Origin: Sphingobium sp.
GTDB taxonomy: Bacteria; Pseudomonadota; Alphaproteobacteria; Sphingomonadales; Sphingomonadaceae
Length of the DNA stretch: 64,000 nt
NCBI GenBank assembly: GCA_023266575.1
Contig: JAHFPV010000002.1
Location: 186,001-250,000 of the forward strand
Reading direction: 5' to 3'
Made by a program: the position numbers and the translations under genes. Numbering within the stretch: the first letter of the stretch is position 1; each line of letters opens with the position of its first letter. The notes below the pieces were generated by a model, which worked only from the letters and a program-made list of their open reading frames with translations, was not told the origin of the DNA and searched no databases. Of this stretch, positions 6,789 through 39,862 are shown piece by piece.

Positions 6789-9113
6789 TCAATCCTGGGT
6801 CAGGAAGTCGGGCAGGCCGCCCGGTGCCGGGCCGTCATCATTGCCGCCTTCGCTGCGTTCGCGACGCGGGCCACGATCGCCACCATCGCGGCGCGGACCA
6901 CGACCACGATCACCACCTTCGCGACGCGGGCCACGGTCACCACCGCCATCGCGGCGCGGACCACGATCGCCACGGGGTTCGCGCGCTTCACGGGCAGGAC
7001 GGGTATCCTCCAGCTCTGCGCCGGTTTCCTGATCGACGACGCGCATCGACAGGCGAACCTTGCCGCGCGGATCGATTTCCAGAACCTTGACCTTTACTTC
7101 CTGGCCTTCCGACACGACGTCGGTCGGCTTTTCCACGCGCTCATTCTTCATTTCGGAGACGTGGACGAGGCCGTCCTTGCCACCCATGAAGTTCACGAAA
7201 GCCCCGAAATCGACAATGTTGACGACCTTGCCGTCATAAATCTTGCCGACTTCCGCTTCCTGCGTGATGCCCAGGATCCACTTGCGGGCCGCTTCGATCT
7301 GCGCCGGGTCGGACGAGCTGATCTTGATCAGGCCTTCGTCATCAATGTCCACCTTCGCGCCGGTTTCGGCGACGATTTCGCGGATGACCTTGCCACCGGT
7401 GCCGATGACTTCGCGGATCTTCGACTTGTCGATCTGCAACGTCTCGATGCGCGGGGCATGGGCCGACAGCTCGGTGCGGGTCGAGGACAGCGCCTTGCTC
7501 ATTTCGCCAAGGATATGCGCGCGGCCTTCCTTCGCCTGGGTCAGCGCGGCTTCAAAGATTTCGCGCGTGATGCCCGCAATCTTGATGTCCATCTGCATCG
7601 TTGTGATGCCTTCGGACGTGCCGGCCACCTTGAAGTCCATGTCGCCCAGATGATCTTCGTCACCCAGGATGTCGGACAGGACCGCAAAGTCCTTGCCTTC
7701 CAGGATCAGGCCCATGGCGATGCCGGACACGGGGCGCTTCAACGGCACACCGGCGTCCATCATCGAAAGCGAGCCGCCGCAGACGGTCGCCATCGAGGAG
7801 GAACCGTTCGACTCGGTAATGTCGGACAGGACGCGGATCGTGTAGGGGAACTCGTCCTTGCTGGGCAGCACGGGGTGCAGCGCACGCCATGCCAGCTTGC
7901 CATGACCCACTTCACGACGACCCGGCGCGCCGAAGCGGCCGACTTCACCGACCGAATAGGGCGGGAAGTTATAGTGCAGCATGAAGTTTTCATAATGCAG
8001 GCCGGTCAGGCCGTCGATCATCTGCTCGGCGTCCTTGGTGCCCAGCGTGGTGGTGCAGATGGACTGCGTTTCACCGCGCGTGAACAGGGCCGAACCATGG
8101 GTGCGGGGCAGGAAGCCAACCATCGCTTCGATCGGGCGAATCTGCGTGGTGGTGCGGCCGTCGATGCGCTTGCCGTCCTTCAGGATGGCACCGCGCACGA
8201 TTTCCGCTTCCAGCTTCTTGGTCAGCTTGATGCCGGCCATCACGGTCTGGGCGTCCAGGCCGTCGGCGGTGAACTTCGCCTTCGCCTTGGCGCGGGCTTC
8301 GTTCAGCGCGTTCGAGCGGGCCGACTTGTCGGTCAGCTTGTAAGCAGCGGCAATATCCTTGCCGATCAGCTTCTTGAGCTTGGCCTTCAGTTCGACCAGG
8401 TCATCGCTCTTGGCCATGTCCCAGGGATCCTTGGCCGCCTTTTCAGCCAGGCTGATGATGGCGTCGACAATCTTCTTGCTCGCTTCATGCGCGAACAGGA
8501 CGGCGCCCAGCATGATTTCTTCCGACAGCTCTTTCGCTTCGGATTCGACCATCATGACCGCGTCGTAGGTGGCGGCAACGACCAGGTCGAGTTCGCCGGT
8601 CTTTACCTCGTCCAGCGACGGGTTGAGCTGATATTCGCCATCCTTGTAGCCGACGCGCGCCGCGCCGATCGGACCCATGAAGGGGACGCCCGACAGGGTC
8701 AGCGCAGCGGACGCCGCGATCATCGCCACCATGTCCGGCTCGCTTTCGCCATCGAACGACAGCACCTGGGCGATGACGTTGATTTCGTTGTAAAAGCCTT
8801 CGGGGAACAGCGGGCGGATCGGACGGTCGATCAGGCGGGAAACCAGCGTTTCCTTTTCGGTCGCGCCGCGCTCACGCTTGAAAAAGCCACCGGGGATACG
8901 GCCGGCGGCGGAATATTTTTCCTGATAGTGAACGGTCAGCGGGAAGAAATCCTGGCCTTCCTTCACGCTCTTGGCGGCGGTCACGGCGCACAGCACCACG
9001 GTTTCGCCATAGGTGGCCAGCACGGCGGCGTCAGCCTGGCGTGCGATACGGCCGGTTTCGAGGGTCAGCGTCTTGCCGGCCAGCTCGATCGATACTTTCT
9101 TGACATCAAACAT
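6789..9113 (-). CDS. pnp: Polyribonucleotide nucleotidyltransferase (PNPase)
   Basis: 774-residue trimeric 3'-5' exoribonuclease that degrades RNA phosphorolytically. The start at 9113 is preceded by GAAGGA; the longer open frame upstream is not needed. Two RNase PH-like domains are followed by a KH domain ([17 protein letters not shown]) and an S1 domain ([21 protein letters not shown]). The last ~60 residues form an unusual arginine/glycine/aspartate tail of imperfect GGDRGPRRD repeats, ending in GLPDFLTQD. It follows rpsO across a gap with a terminator-like hairpin and a palindromic repeat. Confidence 0.97.
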
Positions 9114-9206
9114 AGTTTTTTCCTTCGCCCGCGTCGGCCCTATTGCCGGGCGGGGCCTTTGGCGGAGCCGGTAAGGCTCCATGGGTGAGGAGTGAACTCC
9201 TCATGT

Positions 9207-9304
9207 CCGTTCGCCCTGAGCGAAGTCGAAGGGCTTAGCTGAGCAGAGGCGAAGCAAACTTCGCTTCGCTCAGTAGAAGGCTTCGACAAGCTCAGCCCGA
9301 ACGG
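9207..9304. repeat. Long palindromic repeat (GTTCGCCCTGAGCGAAG family)
   Basis: The ends CCGTTCGCCCTGAGC and GCTCAGCCCGAACGG are near-perfect reverse complements, and the middle has a second nested palindrome (GAAGCAAACTTCGCTTC region). It is closely similar to 22866-22964 and to the shorter 19328-19405. It lies in the rpsO-pnp gap and could affect processing of the message. Confidence 0.85.
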
Positions 9305-9373
9305 TGTGGGGAAATGTCCCCCATATCATGAGCGCCGTGCCGAATTGCCCGACGCCATGTTTCAGAATCAGAA

Positions 9374-9394
9374 ACGGCCCCGCATGGGGGCCGT
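9374..9394 (-). terminator. Hairpin after rpsO, terminator-like
   Basis: A perfect 8-bp stem, ACGGCCCC/GGGGCCGT, with a CATGC loop lies 17 bases after the rpsO stop. On the minus strand it is followed by TTCTGATTCTG, a weak T-rich tract. It may act as a partial terminator or an RNA-processing hairpin between rpsO and pnp. Confidence 0.6.
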
Positions 9395-9411
9395 CCCGTT
9401 GAAGGTCTGCG

Positions 9412-9681
9412 TTACTTGCGCAGGCCCAGCTTGGCGATCAGGTCGGTGTAGCGCGCCTGATCCTTCTTCTTGAGATAGTCCAGCAGCGAACGACGCTTGT
9501 TGACCATCATCAGCAGACCACGACGGCTGTGATTATCCTTGTGGTGACCCTTGAAATGCTCGGTCAGGTTGGTGATCCGCTCGGTCAGGATCGAAACCTG
9601 GACCTCTGGCGAACCCGTGTCACCCTCAGCGCGGGCATATTCCTTGATCAGCGCTTCCTTGCGCTCGGCAGTAATCGTCAT
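9412..9681 (-). CDS. rpsO: 30S ribosomal protein S15
   Basis: 89 residues, the standard length for S15, which binds 16S rRNA in the central domain of the small subunit. The family pattern is complete: [32 protein letters not shown], then [10 protein letters not shown]. Its ATG directly follows the truB stop codon with no gap, which suggests translational coupling. The truB-rpsO-pnp order is the common bacterial arrangement. Confidence 0.98.
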
Positions 9682-10719
9682 TTAGTCGTCATCCTTCGAC
9701 ATCAGGTTGAAACCGCGCACCACGATGATCTCGCGATCATCCGACCGGACCAGCGCGACGGGAATAGTCCCGTCCATCGCCAGATACAGGCCGGTGGTGG
9801 CAATGATCCCGGTCAGAACCTTCCCCTGTCGGAGCATCAGGGCCTGATCGGGAGAGACGGGGAGAGCCGGGATGTCGTCCAGCCCCGCCGTCAGCGGCAG
9901 CATAAGGCTACCGATGGCGCGCTCGTTAGCAGCATGGCGCAATTTGTCCAGCGAAATCGCGGAATCCAGCGTGAACGGCCCAGCCTTGATACGGCGGAGC
10001 ATGGTGACATGCCCGACCGTCCCCAGCGCCAGCGCAATGTCGCGGGCAAGCGAGCGGATATAGGTGCCTTTGGAGACATGGGCGCGCAGGGTGATGGCCT
10101 CAATCCTCTCCCCTTGGGGGAGAGGATATGAAGGCTTGGCAGCTTGCTGCCTAGCCGCAGTTGGAGAGGGGGTTAGCGCACCCTCCCCCTCTCCAAGCTG
10201 CGCTAGCCCGCCATGCGGGCAAGCTGCGCTATCCTCTCCCCCGTGGGGCGAGGAGATTTGCAGCCCATACACCGTCACCCCGCGCACCTTCATCTCCACA
10301 TCCGCCCCCGCCCGCGCCAGATCATAGGCGCGCTGGCCGTCGATCAGGATGGCGCTATAGGCGGGCGGCACCTGTTCGATCGGGCCGGTGAAGCGCGGCA
10401 GCACCGCCTCCACTTGCCCCCATGTCGGTCGCACATCGCTGGTCGCGATCACCGCGCCTTCCAGGTCGAGCGTGTCGGTCTGCGCCCCGAACGCGATCGT
10501 GAAATCATAAATCTTGTCGCTGTCGAGCATCCGCCCGGCAAGCTTGGTCGCCTCGCCGATCGCGATCGGCAGCACGCCTGTCGCCAGCGGATCGAGCGTG
10601 CCGCCATGGCCGACCTTGCACTTGCCCGCCCCGCTGTCGCGCAGTGCGCGCTTGACCGCGCTGACCGCCTGGGTGGAGCCAAGGCCATGGGGTTTGTCGA
10701 GGATGATCCAGCCATGCAT
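9682..10719 (-). CDS. truB: tRNA pseudouridine(55) synthase TruB, with in-frame repeat insertion
   Basis: Makes pseudouridine 55 in the T-loop of tRNAs. The catalytic motif GGTLDPLATG (Asp43) and the later SKGTYIRSLARD segment are intact. At 345 residues it is longer than usual. Residues about 156-205, rich in Gly, Ala, Pro and Gln, interrupt the chain between YGLQI and EAITLRAHVSKG and coincide with a palindromic repeat in the DNA (10101-10254). The reading frame is kept, so the protein may still work with an exposed loop. The gene sits between tdk and rpsO. Confidence 0.95.
   Translation of the reverse strand: MHGWIILDKPHGLGSTQAVSAVKRALRDSGAGKCKVGHGGTLDPLATGVLPIAIGEATKLAGRMLDSDKIYDFTIAFGAQTDTLDLEGAVIATSDVRPTWGQVEAVLPRFTGPIEQVPPAYSAILIDGQRAYDLARAGADVEMKVRGVTVYGLQISSPHGGEDSAACPHGGLAQLGEGEGALTPSPTAARQQAAKPSYPLPQGERIEAITLRAHVSKGTYIRSLARDIALALGTVGHVTMLRRIKAGPFTLDSAISLDKLRHAANERAIGSLMLPLTAGLDDIPALPVSPDQALMLRQGKVLTGIIATTGLYLAMDGTIPVALVRSDDREIIVVRGFNLMSKDDD
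10101..10254. repeat. Palindromic element inserted inside truB
   Basis: About 150 bases with nested inverted repeats: CTCTCCCC-GGGGGAGAG at the left end, a central TTGGAGAGGGGG/CCCCCTCTCCAA pair, and CTCTCCCCCGTGGGGCGAG at the right end. The left half resembles the intergenic element at 39785-39862 (CTCCCC..GGGGAGA-GGATA, then TTGGA-AGAGGGGGTT). It has no stop codon in the truB frame and codes for about 50 extra residues. Confidence 0.85.
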
Positions 10720-10751
10720 GGACGCGCGCCTACACGGCGGCAGGCCGCTTG

Positions 10752-11330
10752 TCAGCCGCCCATCTGTTCCCGATAATGGCGACGGCAGAGCGCGACATAG
10801 CGGTCATTGCCGCCAATCTGCGTCTGCGCGCCATCGCGCACCGCGTCGCCCCGCCCGTCCACGCGCAGGTTCATCGTCGCCTTGCGCCCGCAATCACACA
10901 CTGTCTTGATCTCGCTCAGCGTGTCCGCCAGCCCCAGCAGATGGGCGCTGCCCTCAAATAATTCCCCGCGAAAATCGGTGCGCAGGCCATAGCATAGCAC
11001 CGGAATGTTGAGGTCGTCACACAGCCGCGCGATCTGCCACACCTGATCGCGGGTCAGGAACTGCGCTTCGTCGATCAGAACGCAGGACAGGGGCGTCGCC
11101 TCATGCTGGCGCGCGACAGCAGCGAAAATATCGACCGCCGGATCGAACAGATGCGCGTCCGTCTCCAGCCCGATGCGCGACGCTATGCGACCATGCCCAA
11201 AGCGATCGTCGATCGCGGCGGTCCACAGCATCGTCGCCATGCCGCGCTCACGATAGTTGAAGCTCGATTGCAGCAGCGTCGCGGATTTGCCCGCATTCAT
11301 CGAGCTATAGTAGAAATAGAGCTTGGCCAT
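10752..11330 (-). CDS. tdk: Thymidine kinase
   Basis: 192-residue type II thymidine kinase, which phosphorylates thymidine in the salvage pathway. The P-loop SSMNAGKS is at residues 9-16. The DEAQFL motif, the lasso region and C-terminal zinc cysteines (VCDCGRKA, CRRHY) are present. It starts just before the truB end of the block and stands between the alpha/beta hydrolase and truB, genes it is not functionally tied to. Confidence 0.96.
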   Translation of the reverse strand: MAKLYFYYSSMNAGKSATLLQSSFNYRERGMATMLWTAAIDDRFGHGRIASRIGLETDAHLFDPAVDIFAAVARQHEATPLSCVLIDEAQFLTRDQVWQIARLCDDLNIPVLCYGLRTDFRGELFEGSAHLLGLADTLSEIKTVCDCGRKATMNLRVDGRGDAVRDGAQTQIGGNDRYVALCRRHYREQMGG

Positions 11331-19170: not shown

Positions 19171-19327
19171 GCAATCTCCAGAACAATATAAGTTTGCCGC
19201 CGCCGCAGGCGGTTTGCCTGCGACCCTGACATGTTTGACGATGTAAGGAAGCGAGGGCGATATAGGCAGGACGCCGATAATCTGCAACATTATTCGTTCC
19301 CGCTCATTCTACAGCCAATATCTCGTC
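19171..19327. promoter_or_regulatory. Divergent promoter region, rimP / sugar dehydrogenase
   Basis: The gap between the divergent rimP and sugar dehydrogenase genes must hold the promoter of the rimP-nusA-infB block. An imperfect hairpin (CCGCCGCAGGCGG, about 19200-19212) lies close to the rimP start in the presumed leader. No clear -35/-10 pair or known attenuator could be assigned by eye. Confidence 0.4.
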
Positions 19328-19405
19328 CCGTTCGCCCTGAGCTTGTCGAAGGGTCGTTCTTTCTGGAGAAGAAGGACGGGGCTTCGACACGCTCAGCCCG
19401 AACGG
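19328..19405. repeat. Palindromic repeat next to the sugar dehydrogenase start
   Basis: The outer arms CCGTTCGCCCTGAGC...GTCGAAGGG and GCTTCGACACGCTCAGCCCGAACGG pair with each other, as in the copies at 9207 and 22866; the inner part is a second small palindrome (CTTTCTGGAGAAG region). The right end runs straight into the GGAGGA ribosome site of the downstream gene. Confidence 0.85.
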
Positions 19406-19413
19406 AGGATAGA

Positions 19414-20547: not shown

Positions 20548-20673
20548 TGCGACATATCTCCCCTCCCCGGCGGGGAGGGGCCGGGGGAGGGGGAGCGAGG
20601 CAAAGCCGAGCGTCGATGCTAGCGTCGGCACACCCCCACCCAACCTCCCCCTCAAGGGGGAGGAGTCGCATCA
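20545..20673. repeat. Palindromic element with 9-bp terminal inverted repeats
   Basis: The ends TGATGCGAC (20545-20553) and GTCGCATCA (20665-20673) are exact inverted repeats. Inside are CCCCTCCCCGGCGGGGAGGGG at the left and CCTCCCCCTCAAGGGGGAGG at the right, around a GCCGAGCGTCGATGCTAGCGTCGGC centre. The stop codon of the sugar dehydrogenase is the first three bases. It fills the gap between two convergent genes and may also serve as terminator. Confidence 0.8.
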
Positions 20674-22771: not shown

Positions 22772-22865
22772 GCGACGGGTTCTGTCCGGAAATGGGGTGC
22801 GTTGCCGCGCACATAGCGATGAAGCGACGCGGGGGCAACCATGGGTATCTGACTCGATTCCAAAT

Positions 22866-22964
22866 CCGTTCGCCCTGAGCGAAGTCGAAGGGCTCTGCTG
22901 AGCCGCAGGCGAAGCTGCTTCGCTCCGCTCAGCACAAGGCTTCGACTTCGCTCAGCCCGAACGG
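22866..22964. repeat. Long palindromic repeat (GTTCGCCCTGAGCGAAG family)
   Basis: The ends CCGTTCGCCCTGAGCG and CGCTCAGCCCGAACGG form a near-perfect inverted repeat, with a nested hairpin GCAGGCGAAGC/GCTTCGCTCCGC between. It is nearly the same as 9207-9304. It occupies most of the tpiA-secG gap and ends 8 bases before the tpiA stop. Confidence 0.88.
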
Positions 22965-23882: not shown

Positions 23883-25835
23883 ATGCTTGCTGTCTTTCGC
23901 CGCTTCATTCGCTCCAGGTTCGGCGCGGTCTTTGCGATCCTCTTCCTGGCGGTCATCGCCGGTGCCTTCGTTCTGGGCGATCTGTCCAGCGGCCAGTTCG
24001 GCAGCAGCCTGACCGGCGGTGGCGGCACGGCGGCCAAGGCGGGCAGCCACAAGCTGTCGCAAAACGAAGTGCAGGACCGTATCCAGCGCGTCTATGAAAA
24101 TGCCCGCAAATCCAATCCCGGCCTGCTGATCGGTGATTTCTTCGCGCAGGGCGGCGCGACACAGGTGTTCGACCAGCTGGTCGCGTCCCTCACGCTGCGC
24201 GCCTTTGCCGACGATCAGGGCGTGCATATCTCCAAGCGGCTGGTCGATGCACAGATTGCGCAGATCCCCGCTTTTCAGGACGCAGCGGGCAATTTCAGCC
24301 AGGATAATTTCCGATCGCTGCTGATCCGCGAACGCATCACCGAACAGGCGCTGCGCGACGATATCAGCCGCGAAATCCTCCAGCGCCAATTGCTGGGTCC
24401 GGTGGGGCTTGGCGTCAAGCTCTCCGACTCTCTGGTGCTGCCCTATGCCTCGCTGCTGCTCGAAGCACGGCAAGGCACGATCGCGGCAATCCCGGCGGTC
24501 GCCTTCCTTGACGACAAGGCACCGACCGACGCGCAACTGGCCGATTATTACAAGCGTAACGCCGACCGCTTCACCATTCCCGAACAGCGCCGCATCCGTT
24601 ACGCGGTGATCGACGCGCAGCGTTTCGTGCAGGCCTCACAGCCCAGCGAAGCGGAAATCGCCGCCGCCTATAATCAGAACAAGGCCGCCTATGCCGCGAA
24701 ACAAAACCGCAGCATCGAGCAACTGGTGCTGCCGACGCAGGCAGCGGCCAAGGCGATCGCCGATCAGGTCAAGGGCGGCACGACGCTGTCCGCCGCGGCA
24801 AAGGGCGCGGGCCTGGAAGCGCTGACGCTGGCCGACCAGAGCCAGGCCGCACTCACCGCATCGGCGGGCAAGGCCATTGCCGACGCCGCCTTTGCCGCCA
24901 AACAGGGCGATCTGGTCGGTCCCGTGCGCGGGTCGCTGGGCTGGGTCGTGCTGCGCGTGACCGCGATCACCGAGACCCCCGCCCGCCCGCTCGCCTCGGT
25001 GCGGGGCGAACTTGTCGAGACGCTGCGCGCGCAAAAGGAAAAGACGCTGCTGACCGAATTGACCGGCAAGCTGGAGGACCAGATTGCCGATGGCGGCACG
25101 TTTGAGGAAGTGGTCAAGGATAATGGCCTGAAACTCGAAACCAGCCCGCTGCTGCTCGCCACCGGCAAGCAGGTCGAGGATTCGGCCTATGTCCCCTCCG
25201 CCGACCTGCAACCGCTCATTGCCCCTGCCTTCGCGATGAACGCGGACGACGACGCGCAGCTGGTGCCGATCACCCCGGACAAGCGCTATGCATTGATCGC
25301 CGCCGGAGAGATCGTGGCCGCTGCGCCGCCGCCGCTGGCCAAGGTCAAGCCGCTGGTGCAGGCGCAGTACAAGCTCAATCAGGGCAATCAAAAAGCCAAG
25401 AAGGTCGCCGAGGATATCCGGGCCAAGGTCGCCAAGGGCATGAAACTGGCCGATGCCGTCGCGGCCGTCGGCGTCAAGCTGCCCGCGCCGCAAGTGCTGG
25501 GCGGCCGCCGCGCCGACATCATGCGCGGGGAGCAGCGTCCCCCGGCCGAAGTCGCCATTCTCTTTTCGATGGCGGCTAACACGGTCAAGACGCTCCCCAT
25601 AGGGCAGGATCGCGGCACCTTCGTGGTGCAATTGAACGCCATCCAGCGCGGCGATGCCAAGGGTCAGCCCGAACTGTTGAAGCAGGTGCGCGACCAGCTC
25701 GGCGAAGTCGTCGGCCAGGAATATGGCCAGCAATTCGAGCGCGCGGTCGAAAAACAACTGGGCGTGACCCGCAACGCCAAGGCGGTGGCAGAGGCCCGCG
25801 CGGCCTTGACCGCCACCAACAGCGGCGGGCAGTAA
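23883..25835 (+). CDS. ppiD: Periplasmic peptidyl-prolyl isomerase/chaperone PpiD (SurA N-terminal type)
   Basis: 650 residues. An N-terminal anchor (FGAVFAILFLAVIAGAFVLG, about 13-32) holds a large periplasmic part. A SurA-N-like chaperone region (LSQNEVQDRIQRVYENAR, FQDAAGNFSQDNFRSLLI) comes first, then a parvulin-like PPIC domain (about 270-380), then further helical modules. PpiD assists folding of exported proteins at the SecYEG exit. It lies divergent from tpiA and one base before trpE, so the two are translated in tandem. Confidence 0.93.
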   Translation: MLAVFRRFIRSRFGAVFAILFLAVIAGAFVLGDLSSGQFGSSLTGGGGTAAKAGSHKLSQNEVQDRIQRVYENARKSNPGLLIGDFFAQGGATQVFDQLVASLTLRAFADDQGVHISKRLVDAQIAQIPAFQDAAGNFSQDNFRSLLIRERITEQALRDDISREILQRQLLGPVGLGVKLSDSLVLPYASLLLEARQGTIAAIPAVAFLDDKAPTDAQLADYYKRNADRFTIPEQRRIRYAVIDAQRFVQASQPSEAEIAAAYNQNKAAYAAKQNRSIEQLVLPTQAAAKAIADQVKGGTTLSAAAKGAGLEALTLADQSQAALTASAGKAIADAAFAAKQGDLVGPVRGSLGWVVLRVTAITETPARPLASVRGELVETLRAQKEKTLLTELTGKLEDQIADGGTFEEVVKDNGLKLETSPLLLATGKQVEDSAYVPSADLQPLIAPAFAMNADDDAQLVPITPDKRYALIAAGEIVAAAPPPLAKVKPLVQAQYKLNQGNQKAKKVAEDIRAKVAKGMKLADAVAAVGVKLPAPQVLGGRRADIMRGEQRPPAEVAILFSMAANTVKTLPIGQDRGTFVVQLNAIQRGDAKGQPELLKQVRDQLGEVVGQEYGQQFERAVEKQLGVTRNAKAVAEARAALTATNSGGQ

Positions 25836-36426: not shown

Positions 36427-36502
36427 GGTCCAGGGCGTTTCGTTGAACTGATCCTCCCCTGCAAGGGGATTATCGCGAAATTCATCCTTCACAAATTTTC
36501 AC

Positions 36503-36590
36503 GTCATCCCCGCGCAGGCGAGGATCCATCTCCGGCCCTAAAATCATGACGACAAGGTAGGAGATGGATTCCCGCCTGCGCGGGAATGAC
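36503..36590. repeat. 31-bp inverted repeat pair (CGCCTGCGCGGG family)
   Basis: Arms 36503-36533 and 36560-36590 are reverse complements with about four mismatches, around a 26-base loop. Each arm contains GTCATNCCCGCGCAGGCG. Two head-to-head units with a spacer resemble a REPIN. It lies between the divergent-looking 5' end of queA and the 3' end of the cyclophilin gene. Confidence 0.85.
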
Positions 36591-36665
36591 TAAGATTTGC
36601 TGGCCTATCCGAATTTCGCAACGATCCCTACAAGGGGAGGATGCCGATGGTGGATGCGGACTATA

Positions 36666-39775: not shown

Positions 39776-39784
39776 TCCCACCTA

Positions 39785-39862
39785 CCTTCTCCCCGCTGGG
39801 GAGAAGGATAGTAAGCCTTGCCGAACGCAGTGAGGTTAGGCGCACTTGGAAGAGGGGGTTCG
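39785..39862. repeat. Intergenic element related to the truB insertion
   Basis: CTTCTCCCCGCTGGGGAGAAGGATAG at the left and TTGGAAGAGGGGGTT at the right follow the same order as the left half of the element inside truB at 10101. Between them lies an AAGCCTTGCCGAACGCAG segment. It sits in the gap before purL. Confidence 0.7.

Follow-up and report, generated by a model that had tools for sequence, protein, structure and literature searches.

Palindromic repeats lying inside protein genes have precedents, also in sphingomonads, to which E. litoralis and S. alaskensis belong. The Rickettsia palindromic elements (RPEs; Ogata et al. 2000, 2002) are, in the available parts of PMC2229807 and PMC10969869, palindromes of ~105-150 bp, some of which sit in frame in conserved enzymes. 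REPs are listed, in the accessible text of Di Nocera et al. 2013 (PMC3733652), for tRNA synthetase genes in X. oryzae, E. litoralis and S. alaskensis and for truB in S. maltophilia and the latter two species; the same text recalls that truB of R. conorii holds RPE-1 and states that, with the exception of recB, genes sharing a functional category carry their REPs at different sites. Enterobacterial RU/ERIC units are small mobile repeats with open frames that also lie inside annotated genes, according to the accessible portion of Delihas 2007 (PMC2759123).

The locus reported here lies in a window of 64,000 nt (the whole stretch of Sphingobium DNA analysed) from a genome of 3.6 Mb in 26 contigs. 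The event is of a known kind, i.e. a palindrome in frame in a conserved gene, the gene was already known as a target, and no new kind of system is involved. The element resembles RPEs in its features, being a dispersed palindromic repeat of their ~105-150 bp class inserted in frame and without stops in the gene of a conserved enzyme; truB is likewise occupied in R. conorii, a likeness at the level of the gene that the accessible text of PMC3733652 supports. It differs in that the host is a free-living member of the Sphingomonadaceae and not a Rickettsia, the closest relatives of its TruB being found in Sphingobium species, and in that many element types fill one and the same loop. As in MITEs, terminal inverted repeats are present, as the outer arms of the element. 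On the other hand, CGTC-tagged REPs are approached by two other types found in truB (E and D, below), which mostly fit the tag, the 8-bp stem and the 4- or 5-base loop, often with a CCA tail, whereas a tag scan of the window element showed neither a CGTC nor a GTAG tag with a short stem-loop; moreover, the same loop is reused here, whereas the accessible text of PMC3733652 tells of differing sites within a category. RU/ERIC units share with our case the small open-frame repeat within a gene, but the part of PMC2759123 at hand tells of no recurrent common site. An Rfam search of 9100-11000 gave only matches below the gathering score, which were taken as chance.

The initial annotation of this DNA had proposed that a dispersed palindromic repeat invaded truB in frame, and knew of no sphingomonad truB with an insertion of this kind. 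The invasion is borne out by other genomic copies, by the loops of relatives and by an exchange of type A for type B; the lack of precedent is not, truB of E. litoralis and S. alaskensis being already listed in the accessible text of PMC3733652, and the picture is larger than proposed, with many element types and other enzymes invaded. For recurrent turnover of several types in one truB loop we found no report in the open literature, and the extent of this turnover seems to be new, a few in-frame cases being already in print.

The palindrome in truB of the window

The truB gene (9682-10719, minus strand) encodes a tRNA pseudouridine-55 synthase of 345 aa and lies upstream of rpsO (9412-9681) and pnp (6789-9182), both named by eye from the sequence. 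Its frame, open through the element, scores 218.9 bits against the NCBIfam TruB equivalog TIGR00431 (cut-off 151.45), and judged from sequence the protein looks sound. A full-length palindromic element, which we call type A, occupies ~10103-10257, between the TruB_N and TruB_C_2 domains. Its outer arms (10104-10146 and 10212-10254) are 43 nt long and 74% complementary, the inner arms span 10146-10172 and 10185-10211, and a terminal hairpin is formed by 10103-10113 and 10117-10127; the single-strand fold of 10101-10258 reaches -107.4 kcal/mol (z -9.1), a value matched by 0 of 200 shuffles. Both the nested inverted repeats at this place and their stop-free, in-frame position between conserved parts had been correctly read in the initial annotation, ~45 added residues being found where ~50 had been claimed.

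The insert turns what is a turn of 10-11 residues in other Alphaproteobacteria into a loop of 56 codons (10096-10263, minus strand) between two beta strands. In an alignment with the solved TruB sequence 1R3F, residues 160 and 209 of the window protein pair with chain residues 165 and 168, which leaves 2 unaligned residues in the 1R3F turn versus 48 in the window TruB. Modelling of the insertion as a loop, a check that had been suggested beforehand, gave a consistent picture: AlphaFold2 on 19 aligned sequences returned a mean pLDDT of 77.1, with residues 159-201 below 50 and flanked by strands 144-156 and 208-215, and the loop is thus predicted to be disordered.

The window insert is 85-88% identical in DNA to those of L032, L033, L034 and L037, from several separately deposited species, and the proteins are 83% identical across the species sharing it, whereas the best other full-length copy in its own genome reaches 74% and a half copy 90% over 66 nt. 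These comparisons make it seem that the type A insert was inherited within a group of Sphingobium-like species, and its retention across them could be a hint of use. With such orthologues in several separate deposits, and with inserts present in the genomes of another collection too, an artefact of assembly or gene calling has practically no probability. Type A inserts do not all remain palindromic. Fold z-scores of the 17 type A loops in truB run from -3.6 to -9.7 in the 9 that measure at least 168 nt, whereas 6 of the 8 shorter ones lie at -1.3 to -2.8; the initial annotation had made its reading depend on palindromic DNA in relatives that share the insertion, and this was found in the long loops and is weak in most of the short ones. 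We read the shortened, weakly folding loops as decayed, and those of L031 and L035, both in frame and shorter than that of the window by 75 and 129 nt, respectively, look in sequence like shrunken forms of the window element.

Dispersed copies and other invaded genes

A search of the host genome with the window element gave 53 matches at E <=10 and 32 at E <0.01, both strands counted, so the absence of further copies, an outcome that would have spoken against a repeat, did not occur. A half copy of a type A variant near 39785, already pointed out in the initial annotation, is real (39781-39862); intergenic by eye, it shares 70% identity over 73 nt with the truB element and 90% over 82 nt with the genomic copy L028. 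All 6 full-length type A copies examined, that of truB counted, have at least one open frame, which by our own estimate is not far from chance at such a length.

Element places were surveyed in ~0.67 Mb of DNA from the window's genome (overlaps counted), which is enriched for repeats because many stretches were chosen around them. Seven of the eight types that we distinguish in truB were found there at 82 distinct places (G 30, A 22, E 16, H 8, B 4, C 1 and D 1), and 21 of the 22 type A places were not called in-gene. The window itself holds further dispersed palindromes: a type G repeat at 9197-9304, between pnp and rpsO and downstream of truB, and five more at 276-348 (C), 19321-19406 (G), 20558-20662 (H), 22859-22899 (G) and 36502-36599 (E), with no in-gene call among these five. 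In-gene calls were based on the codon scores of both flanks, with a threshold lowered to 0.03 to recover known cases, and may overlook genes of unusual codon usage or those in which the match contains a stop. They numbered 6 of 82; the search for copies inside genes, which had also been suggested, thereby turned up palindromes of other types in further genes. Besides type A in truB, type H palindromes lie in frame in the valine-tRNA ligase gene valS (L030:1497-1591) and at two sites of glyS (L427:970-1068 and 1860-1968), and CGTC-REP-like pairs of type E in murD (L118:1491-1595) and in a nifS-like cysteine desulfurase gene (L116:1497-1590), the family matches of the latter being under their curated cut-offs.

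A survey of 400 kb plus the window and two known loci returned 33 places at E 1e-4, with truB alone in-gene, under a stricter codon-score threshold that overlooked the known valS and glyS inserts (valS had been borderline earlier). At a looser BLAST cut-off of 0.01, 3 of 51 places were in-gene, namely truB and two matches of 38-39 nt (in L457 and at 24988-25025 of the window) that we took for chance. An inverted-repeat scan of 456 records made 67 in-gene calls, of which 39 were tagged truB after merging of like rows; 12 of the 13 other rows shown were by eye glyS or more truB, one with weak scores (L245) stayed unexplained, and the scan overlooked valS, murD and the nifS-like gene. Across four genomes the in-gene places were 6/82 (that of the window, G000), 1/24, 3/26 and 1/13, truB being included in all four, which is not an independent test since they were picked for their truB insert. 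In the GlyS beta subunit, sampled in 29 family genomes and L374, loops with z < -4 occur in 7/30 at the first site and 6/30 at the second, the window's genome being in both; L374 was found via an element and therefore counts as chosen, which leaves 6/29 per site without it.

TruB, ValS and GlyS being among the invaded genes of this genome, and tRNA synthetases and TruB being listed together for other species in the accessible text of PMC3733652, the inserted peptide could be useful in itself, for instance as an extension with which tRNA enzymes bind RNA or assemble. A pattern confined to tRNA enzymes, suggested by truB, valS and glyS, is weakened by the inserts of murD and of the nifS-like gene. 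Further doubt is cast on the usefulness of the peptide by types that fill the same loop without DNA similarity to each other, by the predicted disorder of the window insert and by insert dN/dS values of up to 1.51, and we regard it as very improbable.

Occupancy and turnover of the TruB turn

Outside the family the turn is short. For 87 of 137 class-wide matches the locus was retrieved (loops were parsed in 195 of 195 loci overall), all sampling staying within the Alphaproteobacteria; 84 of these 87 loops measure 30-36 nt and the other three 45, 48 and 69 nt. None of the 87 matched our element references at E <0.01, and a single loop, of 33 nt (L152), folded with z < -4. The only one of at least 60 nt (L188, 69 nt) holds a tandem GAGGGC run and no palindrome. 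Within this class-wide sample, elements in the truB turn are restricted to the family.

Inside the family, a near sample of 80 truB loci and the window (81 rows) is biased because one search pattern fell inside the insert; 62 of its 81 loops are at least 60 nt long, and 45 of these 62 have z < -4, versus 6 of 656 control windows taken from other parts of these genes, as scored by single-base shuffles, which control less strictly than dinucleotide shuffles do. An even sample of 109 family genomes gave a truB match in 108, one of which (L340) is truncated at the end of a contig and was excluded from the element counts, leaving 107. Here 62/108 loops reach 60 nt, 24 of them with z < -4, and 26/108 measure 27-33 nt; an element was recognised in 29/107 and none in 78/107.

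Altogether, an element of one of eight types was recognised in 88 of the 184 distinct truB loops from sphingomonads (A 17, B 34, C 5, D 8, E 5, F 6, G 6 and H 7). Labels were given by BLAST to references at a lenient cut-off (E <0.01 at a fixed search space), with some sub-types merged by eye, as was Dp with D despite no BLAST match between them; single-linkage clustering of the loops was discarded, nested loops chaining the types together. Weak similarity joins types A, B and H into one group and C and G into another; none of D, E and F has a match to a further type at E <1, which makes at least five groups. Among labelled loops of at least 60 nt, z < -4 was found in 65 of 84 (A 8/15, B 29/34, C 5/5, D 5/8, E 4/4, F 3/5, G 4/6 and H 7/7) versus 0 of 35 unlabelled ones. 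The CGTC tag with an 8-bp stem is present in 5/5 type E and 5/8 type D loops (L045 and L105 have other stems and L272 none), and one or more units carry a CCA tail in 3/5 and 5/8, respectively; tag, 8-bp stem and loop of 4 or 5 bases recur in the nifS-like and murD inserts. Elsewhere the CGTC tag was seen in A 2/17, B 1/34, C 0/5, F 3/6, G 0/6, H 0/7 and 13/96 element-free loops, and GTAG in A 1/17, G 1/6 and 2/96 element-free loops, and otherwise in none.

The truB loop elements are dispersed also in genomes other than that of the window: own-genome matches, both strands and the truB copy counted, were 28 for type C, 18 for E, 104 for D and 79 for G, and type B had 84 genome matches. Dispersal of type F is weak, with 3 matches in its own genome and 60 in another, and that of type H is represented by its 8 places in the surveyed DNA of the window's genome. 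One truB loop of 282 nt (L296) holds D-like and G-like elements together, with more than one D-like unit. Furthermore, 22 distinct loops (L309 and 21 others, labelled X) match a non-palindromic insert of ~111 nt, and the conserved part of X occurs in six other loops too, preceded there by an element of type A, B, E or G (L302, L297, L289, L290, L299 and L315). The X insert, in the same turn, is conserved and carries by eye a GRPDPYDP motif.

Elements turn over between relatives in this loop. The window (A) and L066 (B) have flanking DNA that is 94.2% identical, L047 (E) and L041 (A) 91%, and L252 (B) and L261 (D) 89.7%; a quick single-gene TruB tree built without the loop carries at least 60 label changes, a figure inflated by tree error, with no label shuffling. 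The swap of A for B in place would be accounted for by site targeting through the mobilising enzyme or by recombination with the resident element, i.e. a cassette exchange through similar outer ends. A and B indeed resemble each other weakly there (28 nt, 82%), L101 appears by eye to join the left half of a B' element to the right half of B, and a type H loop (L254) matches type A over 74 nt at 69%; types C/G, D, E and F use the same loop without such ends, however, and we hold targeting or exchange of this kind to be rather improbable as the general explanation.

Probable tolerance of the insert and possible constraints on it

A hairpin kept for a job in the mRNA, such as a signal for an RNase or for attenuation ahead of rpsO-pnp, would make unrelated palindromes interchangeable because the fold alone counts. 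The strong folds of most labelled loops and the substitution of unrelated types for one another are in line with this, as is the pairing in 8 of the 17 type A loops, where 89.9% of the cells are paired, a level reached by 19 of 500 shuffles. Covariation among the same 8 orthologues, type A alone being considered, was no better than in shuffles (two-sided changes equalled in 50/500, score in 109/500), i.e. it gave no signal of a function at the RNA level; in addition, the 78 even-sample genes with no recognised element and the 26 loops of 27-33 nt tell against an mRNA job, which we judge quite unlikely.

In 13 pairs, some sharing members, dN/dS is 0.21-1.51 in the insert versus 0.07-0.36 in the flanks, a pattern that fits a tolerated and slowly decaying insert. 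In 9 of these 13 non-independent pairs dS is lower in the insert than in the flanks, and this could reflect some constraint on the DNA. While the repeat nature, the in-frame occupancy, the exchange of types between relatives and, for the class-wide sample, the confinement to the family are observed directly, the explanation that we consider probable is a non-autonomous, MITE/REP-like palindrome in a permissive beta-hairpin turn of TruB, tolerated and replaced over time; by analogy with RPEs, the best explanation would be that palindromes, selfish or neutral, are tolerated where surface loops are permissive. The turn of the Sphingomonadaceae would have lost a strict limit on its length and become a permissive site, in whose hairpin a dispersed palindrome could land; we propose that the insert may survive because it is stop-free, keeps the frame and, as a disordered loop, leaves the fold intact. 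Elements would then enter the turn, shrink through in-frame deletion and give way to other types. Since no target-site duplication was found and the nearest element-free truB loops are too diverged for a clean empty site, transposition is a mode of entry that we infer, as we do the surface position and neutrality of the inserted peptide and the cause of the loosened constraint.

Tolerance alone does not explain why truB is invaded so frequently when few other genes are seen invaded. It can be speculated that the TruB turn and the GlyS and ValS loops are preferred landing or exchange sites for palindromes of many families, and that genes of tRNA enzymes attract them repeatedly, via targeting or via selection for the hairpin or the insert, in the Sphingomonadaceae and also, going by published reports, in Rickettsia and Stenotrophomonas; we deem this broader proposal unlikely. 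Tolerated palindromes in a permissive turn, our preferred reading, call for caution in comparing these enzymes, as much of the TruB and GlyS length variation in the family is repeat-derived. They also provide a natural series, in free-living bacteria, of close relatives of one enzyme in which repetitive DNA has entered one and the same loop, been shortened and entered anew. Whether coding palindromes are tolerated junk or give rise to new parts of proteins has been a question since the Rickettsia reports, and in this family it can be put to the test on closely related pairs whose inserts differ or have shrunk.
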